Part shown: positions 5,256 through 13,532 of the stretch, piece by piece
Numbering within the stretch: position 1 is the stretch's first letter
Layout: each line of letters starts with the position of its first letter
IMG/VR virus record: IMGVR_UViG_3300024265_000201
Location: 1 to 24,084 of that record
DNA: 24,084 nucleotides
Strand: one strand, 5' to 3'
Source: a virus
Position numbers and translations under genes: made by a program
Notes under the pieces: generated by a model
What the model saw: only the letters and a program-made list of their open reading frames with translations
Database searches by the model: none
What the model was told of the DNA's origin: nothing

Positions 5256-5543
5256 ATGTCAGATATATTTGCACCACTGTTTGAGGTGGCAAGCAAACTA
5301 ATAATGAAAGATGAAGTACCTTTCCACTTTGATGTTGGTACTTTTATTAACAATCAAGGAAATAGATGTCATCTTGTTTCTTGGTGGATTAGTAAAGAGA
5401 CTCAATCTATTGAGGAAGATAGTCTTGCTAGATTTGATGTAATTCAAGACATTATTACACATACAATGTACACTGATGACATTAATGAAGACATGTTGAA
5501 TGACTGGGTAGTAGAACTAACTGAGGTATTAGAACTTGGTTAA
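5256..5543 (+). CDS. 95-aa acidic protein, unknown function
   Basis: First gene of the rightward early-type block. The ATG at 5256 follows AAAGGAG with ideal spacing; an upstream in-frame start 14 codons earlier would fall at the promoter's own -10 and is rejected. The protein is acidic in its second half (DDINEDMLNDWVVELTEVLELG), with a central IDE-like aromatic patch (HLVSWWISKETQ). No family recognised. Position straight behind a strong promoter fits an early-expressed accessory or host-interaction protein (inference). Confidence 0.7.
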   Translation: MSDIFAPLFEVASKLIMKDEVPFHFDVGTFINNQGNRCHLVSWWISKETQSIEEDSLARFDVIQDIITHTMYTDDINEDMLNDWVVELTEVLELG

Positions 5544-5876: not shown

Positions 5877-5922
5877 CTATTTCAAAATATTTGTGTACTT
5901 TTGAATTAAAATGTGTTATAAT
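5877..5922 (+). promoter_or_regulatory. Promoter of paralogue A, same module as 5180-5225
   Basis: CTATTTCAAAATA (5877-5889), 4 bases, -35 TGTACT (5894-5899), 17-base spacer, TGT-extended -10 TATAAT (5917-5922). Element order and spacing are identical to the promoter about 700 bases upstream. Confidence 0.75.
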
Positions 5923-5966: not shown

Positions 5967-6506
5967 ATGACTATTAAGAAAGCTTTTATCGAATTGCATG
6001 CCGTACTGGTAGCAAACGAAGAAAAGAAAGTAAAGTCAGTTCTTCCTGAACTGATTGAGATCATGTCTGCCAAAGGTGCTGGTGGTGCTGCTTCTTCAAT
6101 GCATCGTGCTGAGGATGGTAGTGTGCTTTGCATTATGGATTACTACTTCAAGAAGTGGTTGCCTGTTGATCTTGTTGAGTTTGGTGCCAAAGCTAACAGT
6201 GCTTCTGGTCTGAATACAATGTGCAAGCTTGGCACATCTTTATGGACTAAGCAACAACGTGAGTTCAAGAAAGGTAAAGAGAACCTCTTGGAAGATGTTG
6301 CTGCTGGTGATGTACTGCCTACTGAGATTCAAGGTAAGCTTGATGAGTTGGAAGAAGCACGTGGGTTTATCGCTGATTATCCAATTCCTGAACTCGCATT
6401 CGCAAGCATTGAAGATTATACTGCTGCAGATCAGGATGAGTTAGCACAAGTGCATGCTGACTATTACCAAGCAATTGTTGATGCTGAAGCTGCTGAAGCT
6501 GCATAA
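5967..6506 (+). CDS. Paralogue A of a two-copy phage protein family, unknown function
   Basis: 179 residues, ATG preceded by GAGGTAATACTA. The protein is clearly related to the product of 10589-11050: both begin with a TIKK helix and a VLVANEEKKVKSVL-like segment, both have a Y-Y-x-K-x-W centre, and residues 77-101 match the other copy at 19 of 25 positions, including WTKQQREFK. Paralogue A differs in having a glycine/alanine-rich insert (KGAGGAA) and a long acidic, alanine-rich C-terminal tail (about residues 140-179). It looks helical, soluble and abundant: own strong promoter, good RBS, own terminator. A nucleic-acid or host-protein partner is possible. I do not recognise a named family. 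Confidence 0.8.
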   Translation: MTIKKAFIELHAVLVANEEKKVKSVLPELIEIMSAKGAGGAASSMHRAEDGSVLCIMDYYFKKWLPVDLVEFGAKANSASGLNTMCKLGTSLWTKQQREFKKGKENLLEDVAAGDVLPTEIQGKLDELEEARGFIADYPIPELAFASIEDYTAADQDELAQVHADYYQAIVDAEAAEAA

Positions 6507-6525
6507 GTTTCTCGCCACCGAGATT

Positions 6526-6550
6526 AGCCCCTTAATTGGGGCTTTTCTTT
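6526..6550 (+). terminator. Rho-independent terminator after paralogue A
   Basis: AGCCCC-TTAATT-GGGGCT followed by TTTCTTTCTT: a 6-bp GC-rich stem and a T-rich tail, 20 bases after the stop. It isolates paralogue A from the dUTPase pair, which must rely on read-through or an unseen promoter. Confidence 0.8.
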
Positions 6551-6564
6551 CTTAGGAGTAAGTT

Positions 6565-6783
6565 ATGAAACTTATTGAATCACCTCTTGATGTTGCTGCA
6601 TTGCCATTAAGAGTTGTTACGTTTAGATGGGATACTGGTGAAGGTGAGATTTGGATTGAGATTACACCTACTGATACTGGTATTGAACTTTATTGTGATG
6701 GTGAAGGTTGTGCTGAACTTAATTATACTGATAATGAATGTATAAATGCAATGACAATTCAACCAGAACTTTCGGAGAGATAA
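6565..6783 (+). CDS. 72-aa acidic protein, unknown function
   Basis: ATG preceded by AGGAGTAAGTT. An acidic, beta-rich small protein (TFRWDTGEGEIWIEITPTDTGIELYCDGEG) with three cysteines and no known motif. It ends 2 bases before the dUTPase start, and the dUTPase RBS (GGAGAG) lies inside its last codons, so the two are probably co-translated. Function unknown. Confidence 0.7.
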   Translation: MKLIESPLDVAALPLRVVTFRWDTGEGEIWIEITPTDTGIELYCDGEGCAELNYTDNECINAMTIQPELSER

Positions 6784-6785
6784 TT

Positions 6786-7418
6786 ATGTTGACACTTGAG
6801 CAGTTAAAAGAAATGCTCGATTTGCAAGAGAAGTTAGAAGTACATATTGCTGGTGAGGATTGGCGTAATGCTAATCATGACTATGCATTGTGTATTCACA
6901 TGGAATGTGCTGAAGTTATTGATAAGTATGGTTGGAAACATTGGAAGAATTTACCTGATAGAGCACAAAATGCTGATGCTATTGCTATGGAACTTGTTGA
7001 CGTATGGCATTTTGTTATGGCATTCATGTTGACGTTTGATGATTTCAGTGCTGAGTTTATGCATAGTCAATTGCTAGCAGCAGAGAGTGAGTACGAGAAT
7101 GAACCTGAAAAAACTATGGTGCAATACTGTATTGGTATGGGTTATTCAATGTTTGCTATGACACAATTTCCATACGGTAATTTCGTTGGTGCCATGGATA
7201 AGATCGGTATGAGCTTTGACATGCTTTATATATTGTATGTGTCTAAGAATATACTGAACTTATTCAGACAGGATCATGGCTATAAAGATGGAACGTATCA
7301 TAAGTATTGGAGTGGAAGAGAAGATGATGAGCACCTCCATGAGATACGGAATCAGTTAGGTAATGATTTTAATGCTGAGAGATTGTATGCATTGTTAGAG
7401 AATAGATATACAGGCTGA
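6786..7418 (+). CDS. Dimeric dUTP diphosphatase (all-alpha NTP pyrophosphatase family)
   Basis: 210 residues when started at the ATG at 6786, which has GGAGAG upstream; a longer frame from 6738 lacks a site. It should hydrolyse dUTP to dUMP and pyrophosphate, keeping uracil out of phage DNA and feeding dTMP synthesis. Family signs: the magnesium-binding ExxE...ExxD set, E40 and E43 in HMECAEVIDKYGWKHWK, then E69 and D72 in MELVDVWHF; and the C-terminal block NLFRQDHGYKDGTYHKYWSGREDD (159-181), characteristic of the dimeric dUTPases. Helices dominate and there is no beta-trefoil motif of the trimeric class. Its dNTP-pool role fits a phage that has its own polymerase. Confidence 0.85.
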   Translation: MLTLEQLKEMLDLQEKLEVHIAGEDWRNANHDYALCIHMECAEVIDKYGWKHWKNLPDRAQNADAIAMELVDVWHFVMAFMLTFDDFSAEFMHSQLLAAESEYENEPEKTMVQYCIGMGYSMFAMTQFPYGNFVGAMDKIGMSFDMLYILYVSKNILNLFRQDHGYKDGTYHKYWSGREDDEHLHEIRNQLGNDFNAERLYALLENRYTG

Positions 7419-7424
7419 AATGTA

Positions 7425-7454
7425 GGAGACCCTCGATACAGGTTGAGGGTCTCC
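7425..7454. terminator. Strong hairpin between convergent gene blocks
   Basis: GGAGACCCTC pairs perfectly with GAGGGTCTCC (10 bp, 10-base loop). It starts 7 bases after the dUTPase stop and lies 40 bases from the end of the opposing minus-strand operon. Neither side has a T tract, so it may be a bidirectional transcription barrier or RNA-end stabiliser rather than a classical terminator. Confidence 0.55.
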
Positions 7455-7493
7455 AGTTGTTGATGCTAAAAAACTAGTTCAAATTACATCTCC

Positions 7494-7844
7494 TTAAGTA
7501 AATTGTAACATTTTGCCTATTTGAGATGTGATAGAACTTCTAGTCCTACCTAATCTCCCAGCTATTTTGTCTACTTTACCGTAGCATTCATACCATTCTT
7601 GCTTTAGCCAGCGTTGTGCTTTGTGATCCCAAGGTTTGCCATAGTTACAAGGTTCTTTGCAACACTCATGGCTTGTTTGCTGGTCATCCCAAACAAGTAC
7701 TTGATGACGACCAGTAGCTACTAACTGATAGATACACACTTCATCACTATCATGATACTCATCAATTGCAATACATCGTGCATGCTCTAAAGTAGAAGCA
7801 CTGCTTGTACCTTCTTTTGCAATTATTACATACATACTACCCAT
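7494..7844 (-). CDS. 116-aa protein with C-terminal helix-turn-helix-like segment
   Basis: Last gene of the minus-strand small-gene operon. AGAGGAG precedes the ATG at 7844, which overlaps the previous stop by 8 bases. The N-terminal half is a small alpha/beta domain (MYVIIAKEG, CIYQLVATGRHQVLVWDD). The middle carries a Cys-rich stretch (HECCKEPCNYGKPWDH). The end (KVDKIAGRLGRTRSSITSQIGKML, about 90-113) reads as a helix-turn-helix of the kind that senses or binds DNA. A DNA-binding regulator is plausible but unproven; the family is not recognised. Confidence 0.65.
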   Translation of the reverse strand: MGSMYVIIAKEGTSSASTLEHARCIAIDEYHDSDEVCIYQLVATGRHQVLVWDDQQTSHECCKEPCNYGKPWDHKAQRWLKQEWYECYGKVDKIAGRLGRTRSSITSQIGKMLQFT

Positions 7845-8013
7845 CTAAGTTCTCCTCTGTGGATATAGTTACAAGAATGTGAGATGGGTAAGGTGTGTCA
7901 AGCACAGCTTTACGAAGGTATATAGTTGTGACAGATTTGTGATCAACTACATTCTTATACAGCACTGCACCTTTGGTCTCACGGTTAAGTTTTAATGCTG
8001 AAACTTCTTTCAT
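7837..8013 (-). CDS. 58-aa beta-rich phage protein, unknown function
   Basis: AAAGGAG stands 5 bases before the ATG. The sequence pattern (NRETKGAVLYKNV..., TIYLRKAVLD, HILVTI) resembles a small protein seen in many phages in which TKGA-type and LYI+K-type segments form paired strands; its function is unknown to me. It begins just 1 base after the stop of the SprT-like gene and overlaps the next gene by 8 bases. Confidence 0.65.
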   Translation of the reverse strand: MKEVSALKLNRETKGAVLYKNVVDHKSVTTIYLRKAVLDTPYPSHILVTISTEENLDG

Positions 8014-8014
8014 G

Positions 8015-8497
8015 TTACTCCTTTAACTCATGCTTCTCTTCTTCAGTAAACTCTAATGGAGTTATTCGGTCGAGGACTTTGCGGGCAATCTCAGGTGCCA
8101 GCTTAACTGCTTCTTCCACTTTCTTACATGTCAGACAACGCTTTGTCTTAGTTAGTGGTGTCAGGTTGTGACATAATTCACACTCGGCTATATCATCAGC
8201 ATCACACTCAGTAATTAAACCTAATATCTTAGCTGTGCGTTGCCAACGAAATTTATGTGGTTTAGCAAAGCCACTATGTAGGTCAGTAAGAAAACACCTA
8301 ATAGTAGTTCGCAGTGCAGCAGGTCCATCGTATGTTGTGGTACTCAGTTGAACAGTACCATTACAATGAGCCTTACCTAACTTAGCTTTAGTGAACTTCA
8401 ATCTCTTGAAGGTATGCACCCATTGTGTATTCTTTAATAGAATACATGCTAATGCTAGTTCAAAGTGAAATGCTTCTCTGAGTTCGTCTTCATTCAT
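8015..8497 (-). CDS. SprT-like protein lacking the HExxH metalloprotease motif
   Basis: 160 residues; GAGGAACATGAA before the ATG. Overall layout follows SprT-like proteins: an N-terminal W...F..LKFTKAKLGKAHCNGTVQLSTTTYDG segment, a helix at about 64-72, then PHKFRWQRTAKILG (80-93), which matches the H..RW..A..LG block carrying the third zinc ligand, and a C-terminal zinc ribbon (C106, C109, C121, C124). Where active members have HExxH, this protein reads C68-F-L-T-D72, so the two histidines and the glutamate are gone. It is probably a non-proteolytic, DNA- or protein-binding derivative. Alternative: a different zinc-ribbon protein with chance similarity. The family call is by pattern only. 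Confidence 0.55.
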   Translation of the reverse strand: MNEDELREAFHFELALACILLKNTQWVHTFKRLKFTKAKLGKAHCNGTVQLSTTTYDGPAALRTTIRCFLTDLHSGFAKPHKFRWQRTAKILGLITECDADDIAECELCHNLTPLTKTKRCLTCKKVEEAVKLAPEIARKVLDRITPLEFTEEEKHELKE

Positions 8498-8498
8498 T

Positions 8499-8876
8499 TC
8501 ATGTTCCTCTAAATAGACTCTTATAAATCCTATCTATCAAGTCAGTTTCAATACCACTATTGATAAGCATATCGTATGCTTCAGTAAGTAGACCAGCAAA
8601 TTCCTTTATTAACTCTTCATTAGTTAGTAAAGGTTCATCCCAATTGAAATGTGGTGAGTGATCATTAGCATTGTATGATTCCATGTTCTTAAACATCATA
8701 GCACCATACTCATAGACAATAACAATTTGATTGCACTCAGTATTGTAAATATCATTCATGACATATCCACCAGTGTTAATGGTTTTGACACTGTCTAGAA
8801 TAATCTTAGTGCCACCAAATACTCTATGAATCAGTTCTATCTGTTCTTTAGTAAGTGTAAAGGTTTGACTACTCAT
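8499..8876 (-). CDS. 125-aa acidic protein, unknown function
   Basis: AAGGAAT precedes the ATG, which overlaps the previous micro-gene's stop by 8 bases. Begins with a helix (TFTLTKEQIELIHRVFGG), then a beta region (NQIVIVYEYGAMMFKNME) and a C-terminal helical part (NEELIKEFAGLLTEAYDMLINSG). No motif recognised. Part of the leftward accessory operon. Confidence 0.7.
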   Translation of the reverse strand: MSSQTFTLTKEQIELIHRVFGGTKIILDSVKTINTGGYVMNDIYNTECNQIVIVYEYGAMMFKNMESYNANDHSPHFNWDEPLLTNEELIKEFAGLLTEAYDMLINSGIETDLIDRIYKSLFRGT

Positions 8877-8985
8877 GTGTATTCCTTATGTAATGGAACT
8901 TAACCAGTTTGCCTTGTGAGCATGTCCACTGACCTCGTTCAGGTGTATACTTCTCAAAGATCTCAGTGATTTCTTGTTCATTCAT
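8869..8985 (-). CDS. 38-aa micro-protein, unknown function
   Basis: A short frame that links its neighbours: its ATG overlaps the upstream stop in ATGA, and its stop overlaps the next gene by 8 bases. Without it there would be a 100-base gap in an otherwise gapless operon. The sequence is charged (MNEQEITEIFEKYTPERGQW) with one cysteine. Its RBS is weak, so translation would depend on coupling. A second ATG 4 bases downstream, in another frame, gives an unlikely product and is rejected. Confidence 0.5.
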   Translation of the reverse strand: MNEQEITEIFEKYTPERGQWTCSQGKLVKFHYIRNTHE

Positions 8986-9407
8986 AGTTCTATACCTAAA
9001 TGATGGAATGTGTAAGAGAGAGCTTCTTCAGTGGTATGTTTGAGAAGATGATGATCTTCAGGATCAAACTTATATTTGTTTGCAAGATACTCCCAAGTAG
9101 CATTCTCTAAATCTATTCGATATTCAGAACCATCATGTGTATGTGGCATATGTTCATCATCTTCATTCTCTAAGCAGTAAAGAACTTCTTTAACTAAGAG
9201 ATTAAGAACAATGTCATTCGTTTCAGGTACTTTTTCAACACGTTCAATCTTGATAGTAAACCTAATTGGTACATCATGACAAAGATTGTATAAAGTATCA
9301 AGTTCACAGTGAAGTACTGCTGATGACTCAGGAGTAAGTTCTTGATTATCCTTGTAGTGTTTAGCTGTATCAGCAATACACCGAATTGTTTGTTTACTAA
9401 GATACAT
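8982..9407 (-). CDS. 141-aa protein, unknown function
   Basis: AAGGAG lies 8 bases before the ATG. Helical N-terminus (KQTIRCIADTAKHYKDN), central beta strands (VPIRFTIKIERVEKV, DIVLNLLVKEVLYCLEN), acidic and histidine-rich end (EDDEHMPHTHDGSEYRID ... HHLLKHTTEEALSYTFHHLG). The histidines could bind metal, but there is no recognised catalytic arrangement. Member of the leftward accessory operon. Confidence 0.7.
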   Translation of the reverse strand: MYLSKQTIRCIADTAKHYKDNQELTPESSAVLHCELDTLYNLCHDVPIRFTIKIERVEKVPETNDIVLNLLVKEVLYCLENEDDEHMPHTHDGSEYRIDLENATWEYLANKYKFDPEDHHLLKHTTEEALSYTFHHLGIEL

Positions 9408-9558
9408 GCTTTGGACTCCTTACTACAGACTTGATTGTGTAGTTCTGAGTCAGTTTTCTCAAACGAGTCATGACTTCAGTGAGGTTATGTGCAGTGGTTT
9501 TAAACCTGCGAGGTTTGTGTTGTTTAGACTGTAAGAGTACAGTATAATTGTATAACAT
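9397..9558 (-). CDS. 53-aa basic protein, unknown function
   Basis: AAGGAG is placed 8 bases before the ATG. A small, strongly basic protein (LLQSKQHKPRRFKTTAHNL, TRLRKLTQNYTIKSVVRSPK) that might bind nucleic acid. It overlaps the next gene by 11 bases and lies just downstream of the paired hairpins at 9581-9628. Function unknown. Confidence 0.65.
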   Translation of the reverse strand: MLYNYTVLLQSKQHKPRRFKTTAHNLTEVMTRLRKLTQNYTIKSVVRSPKHVS

Positions 9559-9580
9559 TTTAGCTTTCTCCTTTAGCTGG

Positions 9581-9628
9581 GAATCGAGTAGTCGATTCTA
9601 GAAATCATCTGTCAGATAACTTCTAGAA
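9581..9628 (-). promoter_or_regulatory. Two overlapping inverted repeats between small genes
   Basis: Repeat 1: GAATCGA-GTAG-TCGATTC (9581-9598), a 7-bp hairpin. Repeat 2: an imperfect 33-base dyad centred at 9612 with TTCTAGAA at both ends (9596-9603 and 9621-9628) and ATCTG-T-CAGAT in the middle. They share bases 9596-9598, so both stems cannot be complete together. The stop of the upstream micro-gene lies inside the second dyad. Could be an alternative RNA fold that tunes the next gene, or a protein-binding site. Confidence 0.45.
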
Positions 9629-9751
9629 TATACCTCTTCGTAACTTCCACATCTTACCTTTACATCTTAGGCAGTAATAAATCTCATGCCATTCAGTTTC
9701 ATACATCTTCTGCCAAATATGCGAGAAACCTTTCCAACACTTGTCAGTCAT
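9623..9751 (-). CDS. 42-aa Cys/aromatic-rich micro-protein
   Basis: The ATG overlaps the previous stop in ATGA, and GGAG lies about 8 bases upstream. The peptide is rich in tryptophan and tyrosine with a CxxC pair (EIYYCLRCKGKMWKL) and an additional early cysteine, as in half of a zinc finger. Function unknown. Confidence 0.6.
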   Translation of the reverse strand: MTDKCWKGFSHIWQKMYETEWHEIYYCLRCKGKMWKLRRGIF

Positions 9752-9954
9752 CTAATTCTCCAAACTCTATAATGATCACCTTCTTTTCGGGCAATAAACT
9801 TCTTAGGTGCATGCTTTATAGAAGCATTAAAACCTGCGCCATGCATAATTCTATCACTTACAAAACTGTCACCTACTTTCATTTCTTTCCAGGGATATAA
9901 GTTTCTACCTTCTCGAAAGATAGGCATCTTAACATTCTTTTCAATTTTAATCAT
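9748..9954 (-). CDS. 68-aa phage protein with YPW...VGDSF...RVWRI pattern
   Basis: AAAGGATAAATC precedes the ATG. The sequence has a layout I recognise from many small phage proteins: a proline-containing start (KMPIFREGRNLYPW), a KMKVGDSF-like turn, a helix-like KHAPKKFIARK and a C-terminal RVWRI strand. The family has no established function that I can state with certainty; it may be an RNA- or DNA-binding beta protein. It is the second gene after the promoter at 10428-10456. Confidence 0.65.
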   Translation of the reverse strand: MIKIEKNVKMPIFREGRNLYPWKEMKVGDSFVSDRIMHGAGFNASIKHAPKKFIARKEGDHYRVWRIR

Positions 9955-9969
9955 GATTTATCCTTTATA

Positions 9970-9997
9970 GTAGACTCTATATAGTAATAGAGTCTAC
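9970..9997 (-). terminator. Hairpin between two accessory genes
   Basis: GTAGACTCTA pairs with TAGAGTCTAC (10 bp, 8-base loop). It lies 12 bases after the 107-aa gene, without a T tract on the minus strand. Probably an mRNA-processing or partial termination structure. Confidence 0.5.
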
Positions 9998-10009
9998 TTA
10001 GTGATTGAT

Positions 10010-10333
10010 CTAATTAATTATGTCAGAAAGTGATAAGTCTAGCATAGTTAGTAAGACACCGAAGTGTGCTAAAGATTCTTTACTGTTTAGAATGCCATTT
10101 AATATCTCTTCAAAGGGAAGATCTATTCTTATCTTACCAGCTCGTTTCAATTCAAAGAAGAACTTAGTAGCAGTCATCTTTGATCTTGCTTCTGATACGT
10201 AATATTGCCACATATCTTTTAATTCTAACTCTATAAAGTCAGATTCATTTAAGATCATCTCAACAGAGTCTGCTAAAGGAGTGATTTCAAACTCTTTAGC
10301 GAACTCTTCTTTTATTAACGTTACAGTCAACAT
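10010..10333 (-). CDS. 107-aa helical protein, unknown function
   Basis: Starts at the ATG at 10333, with AAAGGAT about 9 bases upstream; a longer frame from 10372 lacks an RBS and overlaps the leader. The protein is acidic and mostly helical (IKEEFAKEFEITPLADSVEMIL, FFFELKRAGKIRIDLPFEEIL), with a hydrophobic end (FGVLLTMLDLSLSDIIN). First gene after the promoter at 10428-10456. Family not recognised. Confidence 0.7.
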   Translation of the reverse strand: MLTVTLIKEEFAKEFEITPLADSVEMILNESDFIELELKDMWQYYVSEARSKMTATKFFFELKRAGKIRIDLPFEEILNGILNSKESLAHFGVLLTMLDLSLSDIIN

Positions 10334-10427
10334 AAATATTATCCTTTTAATTAAATACAGATAAGAGCTCAATTAATAATTTTTCTAACTAGTGAGTAAG
10401 ATTAATTAATTAATATCTCTTATTAAT

Positions 10428-10456
10428 ATTATATCACGAATTTTTATAAAAGTATA
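10428..10456 (-). promoter_or_regulatory. Promoter of the leftward accessory operon
   Basis: Minus strand: -35 TATACT (10451-10456), 17-base spacer, TGA-extended -10 TATAAT (10428-10433). Two small inverted repeats stand upstream: GCGAA/TTCGC at 10473-10490 and CTATA-CAA-TATAG at 10492-10504, possible regulator sites. Confidence 0.65.
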
Positions 10457-10539
10457 TAAATATTTTAAAATAGCGAACAATTAATTTCGCACTATACAAT
10501 ATAGTTTTTTTACTACTGATTAATTCTTTTTTTAAACGT

Positions 10540-10569
10540 AAAAAAAAAGAGACACATTTCTGTGTCTCT
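10540..10569 (-). terminator. Rho-independent terminator of paralogue B
   Basis: On the minus strand AGAGACACA-GAAA-TGTGTCTCT, a 9-bp stem with a GNRA loop, runs straight into an uninterrupted T tract. It lies 20 bases after the stop of the gene at 10589-11050. On the plus strand the stem is also followed by CTTTTATT, so it may work both ways. Confidence 0.9.
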
Positions 10570-10588
10570 CTTTTATTAAACCTTCATG

Positions 10589-11050
10589 TCATTCGTCAAT
10601 TTCTAATTGACGAGGATCTTGAAGTGCTTCATTGTGGTGATGTTCAAAGAGTGGAACAATTGAATCTTTCACTTCTTCCAACTCTTCAATCTTACTATTG
10701 ATGTTCTCAATAGCAAGTTCACCATTCGCAACAAGTGTGAGAAGTTCTGCTTTGTCTCTCTTGAACTCTCTCTGTTGTTTTGTCCACTGATTTGTACCAA
10801 CTTTGCACATTGAATTCAAACCTGTTGCAGTATTAACTTTCTTTCCATACTCAACTTGTGAAGTCAATTCCCAAACTTTATGATAGTAACAAAAGACATG
10901 CAAACCATCATCATCTTCAAAGTGGTTCTTGTCTCTTTGTTTACTTTCAAAGATTGGAATCAATTGATCCAAAATGGACTTGATCTTCTTATCCTTATTA
11001 GCAATAAGAATTTCATACACTTCAATGTAACCTTTTTTAATAGTAGTCAT
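10589..11050 (-). CDS. Paralogue B of a two-copy phage protein family, unknown function
   Basis: 153 residues. Homologous to the product of 5967-6506 along most of its length; residues 73-97 match at 19 of 25 positions, ending in the same WTKQQREFK. Compared with A it lacks the Gly/Ala insert, has an acidic, His-containing centre (EDDDGLHVFCYYHKVW), and ends in a short charged tail instead of the alanine-rich one. The ATG has only AAGTGAG nearby, a weaker site than in A. Unlike its neighbours it stands alone: promoter at 11235-11263, a leader of about 180 bases with structured elements, and a perfect terminator. Two separately regulated copies suggest different timing or a dosage requirement. 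Function unknown. Confidence 0.8.
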   Translation of the reverse strand: MTTIKKGYIEVYEILIANKDKKIKSILDQLIPIFESKQRDKNHFEDDDGLHVFCYYHKVWELTSQVEYGKKVNTATGLNSMCKVGTNQWTKQQREFKRDKAELLTLVANGELAIENINSKIEELEEVKDSIVPLFEHHHNEALQDPRQLEIDE

Positions 11051-11084
11051 AATTTATACTCACTTTATAAAGAGTTAAAAAATA

Positions 11085-11115
11085 GTCTACTAAGTTGTCT
11101 ACTAACTTAGTAGAC
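11085..11115 (-). promoter_or_regulatory. Switch-like hairpin in the leader of paralogue B
   Basis: Two near-identical 12-base units (GTCTACTAAGTT and GTCTACTAACTT on the plus strand) are followed by AGTAGAC. On the minus-strand RNA the early segment can first form a 7-bp hairpin (11097-11115) and then, once the last 12 bases are made, a perfect 12-bp hairpin (11085-11115) that displaces it. It lies 35 bases upstream of the start codon. Confidence 0.5.
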
Positions 11116-11153
11116 ACAAAGGTACTTCATCTATATTGTTAAAGAACTTAAAC

Positions 11154-11176
11154 TTGTTTGAAATTTATTCAAACAA
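11154..11176. repeat. Operator-like inverted repeat
   Basis: TTGTTTGAA-ATTTA-TTCAAACAA, a perfect 9-bp inverted repeat with a 5-base spacer, about 60 bases downstream of the promoter at 11235-11263 and inside the paralogue B leader. It suits a dimeric regulator, or an RNA hairpin. Confidence 0.5.
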
Positions 11177-11234
11177 TCTATAAGTGATGAATTAATTAAC
11201 TTATTTGATATATAATTTATTCTTCACTATTATT

Positions 11235-11263
11235 ATTATAATTTATTTAAATATAAAAGTACA
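11235..11263 (-). promoter_or_regulatory. Promoter of paralogue B
   Basis: Minus strand: -35 TGTACT (11258-11263), 17-base spacer, -10 TATAAT (11235-11240). The -35 is followed by TTTT, as in the paralogue A promoter (TGTACTTTT). Confidence 0.65.
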
Positions 11264-11570
11264 ATTATTTATTTATATTAAAAGTGAATTATTAATATGT
11301 TCTGTATATATTAAAATATTATAATATAAGAATAGTAGAATATTAGTATTTAGTTATAATAAGAGCTACATTGTCATTAATTAGAGTAGTTCTAGTAAGA
11401 ATCATAAATAGATAGCGAAGAAAGTGAATGACGCAAAGACGTAGAACCATTTTATCACTTATAAATATATAGTAATTCTTTAATATAATAAAATACATAT
11501 ATACATTATGATTAGTAATTACATGTTTACGTCTTACTTTATTAGTAAATTGGACATTCTTTTAGTTATT

Positions 11571-11621
11571 GTGCAAAATGTACATATTTGTACAAAATGT
11601 ACATATTTGTGCTTTTGTACA
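11571..11621. repeat. TGTACA iteron cluster
   Basis: Two tandem 19-base units (11571-11589 and 11590-11608), differing at one base (GTGC/GTAC), then a degenerate third. TGTACA occurs at 11579, 11589, 11598 and 11616, so starts are spaced 10, 9 and 18 bases, on one face of the helix. None has a TATAAT 17 bases away on either strand, so they do not look like promoters. Confidence 0.6.
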
Positions 11622-11667
11622 TTATATTTTTTAATATGCCAGTTGTTAATATTAATTATTATATTCG

Positions 11668-11731
11668 CTAATATATAAATATTTTAATATACATGCTAAT
11701 ATATCAATATATTAAAATATTTATATATTAG
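11668..11731. repeat. 24-bp perfect inverted repeat
   Basis: Arms at 11668-11691 and 11708-11731 are exact reverse complements, with a 16-base spacer. The 10-base word GCTAATATAT is found at 11667 (overlapping the left arm) and again in the spacer at 11695. Being almost pure A/T, the repeat could extrude as a cruciform or melt easily. Confidence 0.7.
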
Positions 11732-11745
11732 TATATATTAATATA

Positions 11746-11769
11746 CGCCCCCCAGGAGACAATCCGCCG
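11746..11769. other. GC-rich island in the AT-rich region
   Basis: CGCCCCCCAGGAGAC followed by AATCCGCCG: 18 of 24 bases are G or C, inside a region almost free of G and C, 15 bases beyond the long inverted repeat. It could be a protein-binding, nicking or end-cleavage site. No direct evidence. Confidence 0.35.
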
Positions 11770-11838
11770 TATAATATTATTGCGAGGTTGTGGTTAGGAA
11801 GCTAGCCAGTAGTATATCAATGATTTTATTGACACACC

Positions 11839-11882
11839 TAATGTAGATACGCAATTGCTAATAGTAATGTAGATATGTAATT
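11839..11882. repeat. Pair of 18-base direct repeats
   Basis: TAATGTAGATACGCAATT (11839-11856) and TAATGTAGATATGTAATT (11865-11882) match at 16 of 18 positions, with a 26-base period. They lie 57 bases from the end of the large terminase gene. Confidence 0.55.
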
Positions 11883-11939
11883 ATTTTTATTAATAATATA
11901 TTATTAATATAGTGTAACAAAGAAAGCTGCGTTCTTACA

Positions 11940-13532
11940 TCATACAGCAACACCACCACCTATAGTAATGTAATCCTCATCACTTTGATCATCCTCAAAG
12001 AGATGCACAGTACATGCTTGTACCATATAACGTATTGTATCTGCTCCATGCGCCCACTGATTACGTTTTGGTTCATCTCTCCATACTTCTAATAAATGGT
12101 TCCAGGTTTTTGTATAATTGAGGCAGCACTGTTCCAAATACTCACACTCTTCTGCTATCCAGATATTTTGAAACTCTTGGCGAACCTCTTCTATACCATG
12201 ATGTTTACTAAGCTTCTCTAAAATAGTAGTATTATATACTCCGAGATCATTCAGTATCTCTTCCCGCGTCTTATTATCCTGTGTTAGGTCAGTGACTCCC
12301 ATATCATGTGGCAGATACCAATGACTTATATTCCATGTTTTCTCTTCCGCTATCTCTTTCACATAGTTTACATAATGCCCAAGCCATTCACCAGTATTGT
12401 AATATTCCGCAAGTATCCTACATTGTCTCTTCCACACTTGAAAAAAGCACAGGACCATATAATCTGAGCGACCTGCATCTAGAGTCACATAGACATCCAG
12501 ATTGCGATCATATAACTCATCATAGGTTCGACGTTGACCTCGGCGCACTATCATCTCCAGATACCGTTTCGCCCAATATGTGCCGTCCTGCGCTGCTGTA
12601 AAGGCTTCCTCAGCTGTTGCTGGATATTCCTGGTGTATATCTCCTTCGAGTTCTCGGTGCTGGGCTATCCAGAAATTACGCTGTTCAGGCGTTATGACTA
12701 TATTCATGCTTTCTTCGAGTCGTTTAAAGTAATCGAGCTCTTCGTCGGCAGGATATTGCTGCTCGAACTCTACACAGTCAGGATCATCAAGCCACGACAA
12801 AAATACAGGCAGGAAGTCTTTACCTGCTAGCCGTCCCGCGGCATATTGTTTAGTTGAAGAGTCCCACATGTATTTGAACATGTTGACACCCTCAGCAGTT
12901 GACTCAATAATACCTGTATTACCAGGTGCTAGTGCTTGTAGAGTTCCGGTCTTCGTCTCTTTAGCTCTTTCAGGATACTTGTTGGCTATTTTGCCAAGTT
13001 CGCTAATGTGGAGCCGCTGGAGGGTCGAAGACCGGAAACTTGTGCGTATGAACATTGTGGAGTTATTGGATAGCGTGAACTCCTGGGAGTTGTTCTTGAC
13101 TATCTTCAGATTAAAGAAGTCCTTAACCCATGGTTCTAGAGTGTTCCAGGTATGTTTTAAACGTTCCAGGAGTGTTCCAGATTCATCTTTACCTTGTGCC
13201 ATGAGACCACAATTGTAATTAGCTAAGGTAATCAGGTCGTCAAAGTAGGAGATTAGCCAGAATGTGCTGATTCCTTGCTGTCTAGACTTAAGAATGATCA
13301 GTCTAGGATGCTCTAGACTCTTCGCATATACCCTAAATTGAGCTCTATTCAGTCTAAATGGTATAGGTTCACCTACCTTATCAATGATATTGTAGAGATT
13401 ATTGAGTCTCCATAGCTTAGAAGGTAGATATTTAGTGACTAATTCGGTATAATCAGTTGGTTTTGTTACCAAAAGATCATAGAGCTCTGTATCGTTAGGA
13501 TATAGAGTATAGAATTGCTCTTTGGAGATCAA
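11940..13532 (-). CDS. terL: Terminase large subunit
   Basis: 530 residues; the packaging motor and headful or end nuclease. ATPase: Walker A KSRQQGIST at 82-90, Walker B-type LHISEL at 174-179 (Ser-Glu instead of Asp-Glu, known in some terminases), coupling motif STAEG at 211-215. Nuclease (RNase H fold): first acidic residue D352 in LDAGRSD, second D410 in YLPHDMG, third D498 in WAHGADTIRYM. It starts with TTG at 13530-13532, overlapping the small subunit stop in TTGA; there is no in-frame ATG upstream before a stop and the RBS is poor, so translation is likely coupled to the small subunit. Length is normal for the family. It is transcribed away from the capsid genes. Confidence 0.95.
   Translation of the reverse strand: MISKEQFYTLYPNDTELYDLLVTKPTDYTELVTKYLPSKLWRLNNLYNIIDKVGEPIPFRLNRAQFRVYAKSLEHPRLIILKSRQQGISTFWLISYFDDLITLANYNCGLMAQGKDESGTLLERLKHTWNTLEPWVKDFFNLKIVKNNSQEFTLSNNSTMFIRTSFRSSTLQRLHISELGKIANKYPERAKETKTGTLQALAPGNTGIIESTAEGVNMFKYMWDSSTKQYAAGRLAGKDFLPVFLSWLDDPDCVEFEQQYPADEELDYFKRLEESMNIVITPEQRNFWIAQHRELEGDIHQEYPATAEEAFTAAQDGTYWAKRYLEMIVRRGQRRTYDELYDRNLDVYVTLDAGRSDYMVLCFFQVWKRQCRILAEYYNTGEWLGHYVNYVKEIAEEKTWNISHWYLPHDMGVTDLTQDNKTREEILNDLGVYNTTILEKLSKHHGIEEVRQEFQNIWIAEECEYLEQCCLNYTKTWNHLLEVWRDEPKRNQWAHGADTIRYMVQACTVHLFEDDQSDEDYITIGGGVAV

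Follow-up and report, generated by a model that had tools for sequence, protein, structure and literature searches.

The stretch examined here, hereafter the window, comprises 24,084 nucleotides (nt) of the viral record IMGVR_UViG_3300024265_000201 in IMG/VR (positions 1 to 24,084) and carries two open reading frames (ORFs), on opposite strands, whose products belong to one protein family. A first-pass annotation, made from the sequence alone, had described them as homologous copies of an uncharacterised protein, each transcribed as a single-gene unit from its own promoter to its own intrinsic terminator. Both ORFs are present where they had been placed, and we refer to them as copy A and copy B. 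For the family we computed homology, copy number and position, divergence, terminators, codon bias and the enrichment of boxA.

The paralogous pair and its phage lineage

5967-6506, + strand: copy A, 179 residues, PHROG_10459; distal paralogue at the replication module, with an alanine-rich acidic C-terminal helix
10589-11050, - strand: copy B, 153 residues, PHROG_10459; promoter-proximal early paralogue, with the residues CYYHKxWE...NxMCKxG invariant or nearly so among B copies

The two products are identical at 61 of 135 aligned residues (45%; BLASTP, E 3e-39) and at 19 of 25 in the stretch NSASGLNTMCKLGTSLWTKQQREFK. The PHROG_10459 profile matched A with an E-value of 1e-47 (model positions 2-159 of 162) and B with 2.3e-46 (1-155 of 162), so that the likeness is near full length and not confined to a short low-complexity segment; all 22 members of the first family alignment matched the same profile. 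PHROGs, which places together the two copies that our tree splits, annotates the family as of unknown function. Profile searches found no known function for it: neither Pfam nor NCBIfam gave a match above cut-offs, PADLOC gave none, and the best match in a PDB profile search (E 0.12-0.13, to toxin coiled-coil regions) was at chance level. The profile of the Gp2.5-like single-stranded DNA-binding proteins (SSBs), phrog_112, did not appear in the match list of either copy at E <= 1, and it matches a separate gene of the window at 1137-1772. Our literature search returned nothing on these proteins, and the passages on Kafunavirus seen in one paper deal with taxonomy, tail spikes and morphology (PMC8472413).

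A profile search located the family in 69 IMG/VR loci and on 3 bacterial contigs. Twelve records of the phage collection contain it, exactly those that encode this major capsid protein, some of them being double entries (GenBank and RefSeq). The holders are the Edwardsiella phages KF-1, IW-1, ETP-1 and ZHX, Pseudoalteromonas phage PH1, Vibrio phage VPMS1, Dickeya phage Amaethon and two metagenomic podophages. The capsid protein is 58-71% identical in these records; identities are 42-54% for TerL and 40-45% for the primase, and gene order is conserved. The window virus is thus a member of a KF-1-like (Kafunavirus-related) podophage lineage by shared capsid, terminase, primase and gene order, and the family is confined to such podophages. 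No true absence was found: the capsid-positive contigs lacking a family match were fragments or short, and G045 and G046, the largest two, break off in the early region. The bacterial or metagenome-assembled contigs (L081, L082 and L083) are named Negativicutes, Gammaproteobacteria and Komeilibacteria; since L081 and L083 carry a phage primase and measure about 43 kb each, they probably represent phage sequence placed in bacterial bins.

Most of the 47 whole records searched have two copies, and at least two occur in 28 of the 33 that reach 38 kb or more. A third, partial copy was seen in KF-1-type phages (L011 3801-4259; L016 1467-1925), which is without the N-terminal helices, differs in its C-terminal half and has no Pfam match. 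Many of the loci are contig fragments and mutually related; the counts in this report therefore do not stand for independent events, and the p-values make the evidence look stronger than it is.

The gene order across loci runs mcp (-), terL (+), B (+), A, primase, dda, SSB and pol, with B as the first family gene after the terminase and A adjoining the replication module (directly upstream of the SSB gene in L020 and L021). Copy B lies on the terL strand in 50 of 50 loci, and copy A shares the strand of the primase in 35 of 47, the two being on opposite strands in the remaining 12. The opposite strands of the window, earlier read as a meaningful mark of the pair, are accordingly a local inversion common to close relatives and a few others and not a trait of the family. 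In the tree, a 53-row A clade (support 99/91) holds 39 of the 40 copies at position A together with all nine lone A copies, the exceptions being L030 and L056, in each of which both copies fall on one side; the tree separates the copies by genomic position and, being unrooted, does not show which side is ancestral. We conclude that the two genes are ancient paralogues that diverged early, have kept stable positions and mark the lineage of KF-1-like podophages.

Promoter use and the expression of copy A

Both genes are preceded by TGTACT-N17-TATAAT, as first proposed. This signal proved to be group-wide and no special mark of the pair. The general form T[T/G]TAC[A/T]-N17-TATAAT has 136 exact sites across the loci, as against 23 for the same two boxes at a spacing of 16, 7 at 18 and 1-10 at spacings of 14-15 and 19-30, and TTGACA-N17-TATAAT has a single exact site. 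It precedes A, B, the SSB and capsid genes and others, and in the window it is found at 1836 (-; SSB gene), 5225 (+; gene at 5256), 5922 (+; A), 11235 (-; B) and 14231 (-; terminase genes). The phage group as a whole uses it as its house promoter, and we found no paper on such a promoter in KF-1-like phages.

Its prevalence over the TTGACA form would suit a family acting as a promoter-recognition cofactor in the manner of MotA, reading the T[T/G]TAC[A/T] element at -35, and the family is indeed present wherever the early region of the lineage could be checked; a co-occurrence test of promoter and family met only short, fragmentary or cut contigs without the family, and no true absence. We consider this role very improbable. 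Several B genes, which are expected among the first to be transcribed, have the same promoter, so that it ought to be active without any newly made phage protein, and the predicted fold contains no known DNA-reading domain. The gene after A in KF-1 and VPMS1 (L011 8513-9166; L013 38368-38916) is phrog_26674; its product has helix-turn-helix and Sigma70 region-4-like matches, and this candidate regulator fits the task better in those two phages.

The signals around copy A, which like all promoters, terminators and boxA sites in this report are assigned as sequence matches, are as follows.

5894-5922, + strand: promoter of A, TGTACT-N17-TATAAT with a TGT extended -10; consensus match
6526-6543, + strand: intrinsic terminator after A, AGCCCC-TTAATT-GGGGCT with a T-rich tail
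6565-7418, + strand: genes behind the terminator, which would depend on its read-through, a 72-residue ORF and then a dUTPase_2 / NTP pyrophosphohydrolase gene (6786-7418)

Intrinsic terminators stand behind A in 47 of 49 genomes and behind B in 27 of 55, compared with 17% of other ORFs of at least 150 residues. In the window the next gene begins 21 nt past the terminator of A with no promoter between, and hence probably relies on read-through; across the loci, the gene behind A lies less than 60 nt away and shows no promoter match in 35 of 46 cases. The terminator window (160 nt) and the gap (60 nt), like the boxA score used below, were thresholds set after some of the data had been seen. With the next gene so close and promoterless, the terminator probably does not end the unit and instead acts as a leaky step-down that lowers expression of the following genes. 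Of the proposed single-gene units there remains a terminator conserved mainly after A, which is not strictly monocistronic.

Among all gene classes tested, A comes nearest in codon usage to the major capsid gene. By closeness to capsid codons, a proxy for abundance, A stood in the top quartile in 27 of 27 loci, usually first. After normalisation for amino acids its mean relative rank was 0.078, where the SSB gene had 0.207, B 0.377 and the other genes 0.53 (A versus other genes, p 3e-15). This capsid-like usage suggests that A is probably a very abundant protein, and with its codon rank and terminator A fits the earlier suggestion of an abundant or dose-critical protein.

The leader of copy B

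The elements upstream and downstream of copy B in the window, all on the - strand, are listed below.

11235-11263, - strand: promoter of B, TGTACT-N17-TATAAT, 184 nt 5' of the start codon; consensus match
11154-11176, - strand: small hairpin of 9 base pairs (bp) with a 5-nt loop just 5' of boxA, at the position of boxB in ribosomal RNA (rRNA) leaders
11133-11147, - strand: rrn-type boxA, GTTCTTTAACAATAT
11085-11115, - strand: large leader hairpin of 12 bp; L003, L018 and L044 show compensatory changes
11050-11076, - strand: ribosome-binding region of B, with conserved AACTC...AAAGTGAGTATAAAT, which can fold ACUC/GAGU (ACCU/AGGU in L044 and L001)
10543-10574, - strand: intrinsic terminator after B, 14-bp stem with a GAAA loop
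10428-10456, - strand: promoter-like TATACT-N17-TATAAT, which may restart the next early genes past the terminator of B

The boxA of the window, GTTCTTTAACA at 11147-11137 on the - strand, fits GYTCTTTAANA exactly, the published boxA consensus of gamma-proteobacterial rrn operons (PMC5725501). Such sites were first noticed by eye in the leaders and scored later, with the published consensus as an outside check afterwards. A boxA scoring at least 21 of 24 occurs within 400 nt before B in 22 of 57 genomes, where 0.5 would be expected from second-order Markov sequences, and before A in 0 of 49. Counted over all loci, 14 of the 59 matches to GYTCTTTAANA sit in the 1.2% of sequence that lies upstream of B (p 8e-15). 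Of 25 loci that have a site, 18 show a hairpin just 5' of the boxA, compared with 22% of random positions under a slightly stricter definition, and hairpin-then-boxA is the order of rRNA leaders. Copies A and B differ in leader, ribosome-binding site and tail as described, and the idea of two modes of expression is upheld by a boxA leader before B, none before A, and the apparent step-down after A.

The succession of promoter, hairpin, boxA, hairpin, B and terminator resembles pL-nutL-N-tL1 of phage lambda, which raises the reading that B is a transcription-elongation or antitermination factor like N, joining the Nus complex and carrying RNA polymerase through the terminators behind both copies; those after A do stand before promoterless genes. 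Several observations make this rather unlikely. No boxA was found within 400 nt in 35 of the 57 B leaders or in any of the 49 A leaders, a new house-type promoter lies past the terminator of B in 13 of 22 cases, the window included, and the hairpin-then-boxA order is that of rRNA, which needs no phage protein. N is not known as an abundant protein with capsid-like codon usage.

Structure in the leader bears on a further reading, that the family is an RNA-binding autoregulator which binds its own structured leader, the pair forming a dose-control loop. In the clade of the window the large hairpin has compensatory changes at 5 of 11 pairs, with all positions remaining paired (over four sequences, which are few), and a small hairpin over the ribosome-binding site of B was seen by eye; the conserved basic face described below would suit such a role as well. 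Against it, leader structures were compared in this clade only and differ in the other boxA leaders, while the leaders of A are short and an equivalent structure before A was not looked for systematically. We regard autoregulation as quite unlikely. A pattern scan of viral contigs for a leader of the window type returned 96 stretches, of which the recognised lineage members (L084, L212 and L214) were already known, and Rfam gave for the window only a sub-threshold eukaryotic snoRNA match outside the leader (27.4 bits; gathering threshold 50).

Between the terminase and B lies a very AT-rich intergenic region of 0.9 kb (11100-11940), crowded with direct and inverted repeats that overlap, which may be an origin or a genome end.

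Protein features, proposed roles and known systems

Twelve residues are invariant in 57 B copies: C54, H57, K58, E61, G69, K71, N79, M81, C82, K83, G85 and W89. The corresponding CxxH...C positions are relaxed in A (C 69%/D 30%; F 52%/H 35%; C 71%/S 28%), which has a conserved C-terminal G-F-x-T-L-E-E motif of its own. This pattern of conservation suggests that the strict CxxH...C site of B possibly binds metal, and the acidic motif of A perhaps serves partner binding. A treble-clef zinc domain of the HNH/endonuclease VII kind was considered, as the spacing of GLNTMCKxG recalls GLxxxCKxC and several weak Foldseek matches are endonucleases; it was dropped because the ligands expected there are CxxC...CxxC where the family has CxxH...CxxG, and profile-profile comparison (hhalign) gave a probability of 0.1-0.2 (E 0.35-0.41).

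AlphaFold2 models of both proteins, with a mean predicted local distance difference test score (pLDDT) of 94.6 for A and 88.3 for B, have a pair of helices at the N-terminus, then five short strands, a long helix and one more helix, to which A adds a C-terminal helix. No clear match outside the family was found in BFVD. One side of the long helix (358 degrees) is basic, with K87 (113 of 113), K95, R98 and K101, its hydrophobic side lying at 203 degrees; K4 and K5 are near-invariant, the family core has a net charge of +3.5 to +3.9, and the last 25 residues are acidic. Mainly on account of the conserved basic face, we favour nucleic-acid binding by the family, and the earlier suggestion of a nucleic-acid-directed protein gains indirect support to this extent.

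The other suggestion, of a host-directed protein, would make the family an inhibitor or decoy that acts stoichiometrically, like T7 Ocr or gp5.5, blocking a host nuclease, nucleoid protein or RNA polymerase. Its acidic C-terminal tail, the place of B as the first family gene after the terminase and the probable abundance of A agree with this; the core, however, is basic and no DNA mimic, PADLOC gave no match, A is tied to the replication module, and two copies are conserved across hosts as different as Edwardsiella, Vibrio, Pseudoalteromonas and Dickeya, unlike host-specific inhibitors with their fast turnover. Such a role appears unlikely to us.

We favour, with a probability of about 0.35, the reading that A is an abundant stoichiometric nucleic-acid-binding protein for replication and B its immediate-early, separately regulated paralogue; the abundance, the binding of nucleic acid and of metal, the step-down and the Nus recruitment that it draws on are inferred. 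On this proposal A would coat or organise the phage DNA (or single-stranded DNA or RNA) once the replication operon is switched on, much as an SSB or p6 of phage phi29 does, and a strong promoter followed by A and a leaky terminator would yield A in quantity and the products of the genes downstream in smaller amounts. The first transcript would give copy B, as the immediate-early form, under the control of its structured leader, where the rrn-type boxA may recruit the host NusB-S10 complex and keep early transcription going. B would then provide an early regulatory dose and A the bulk supply.

Several points weigh against this proposal. A Gp2.5-like SSB is already encoded by a gene of its own (1137-1772). 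Searches of the models against PDB gave no clear fold match: the best Foldseek E-value was 0.77, and VIA-align reached Z scores of 4.8 and 5.1 at most, largely for common coiled-coil arrangements. Closeness to capsid codons is a proxy only, and in the window, where A ranks 5th and B 3rd among 27 genes, the contrast between the copies is not seen. Finally, the B leaders in which no boxA was found within 400 nt include those of KF-1, PH1 and VPMS1.

Working out the role of this lineage-marking gene pair, of which A has codon usage typical of the virus's most highly expressed proteins, would give a function to a PHROG family and probably name a major protein of infected cells. A separate claim concerns the boxA leader, namely that a podophage uses a host rRNA-type antitermination signal for its early transcript; a partial literature search gave no report of such a leader in this lineage. 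The broadest version, a new class of nucleic-acid-organising phage protein made as an early and a bulk form, with an early leader that captures the host rRNA antitermination complex at the start of lytic infection, is doubtful.

Among known systems, p6 of phi29 is a genome-organising protein involved in replication activation and the early-to-late switch (PMC10899789). A would resemble it in manner only, as a proposed abundant nucleic-acid binder linked to replication; no sequence or fold relation turned up, no direct comparison having been made. Gp2.5-like SSBs share with the family a basic core and acidic tail, high predicted expression and a neighbourhood of replication genes, and differ in that the family does not match phrog_112 and the genome encodes its own separate SSB. 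The leader of B is like the boxB-boxA-boxC leaders of rrn operons in its hairpin followed by an exact GYTCTTTAANA, but drives a phage protein gene, and boxA is present in about 40% of B leaders. With the lambda unit, compared in layout only, B has in common an early promoter, boxA, first gene and terminator; it departs from it in placing the hairpin before boxA and in the new promoter that often follows its terminator, and no similarity of B to N turned up, none having been specifically tested. In phage T7, the abundant gene 10 is followed by the step-down terminator Tphi before further genes. Copy A has the same layout, but it is a gene of the replication module where T7 gene 10 encodes the capsid.

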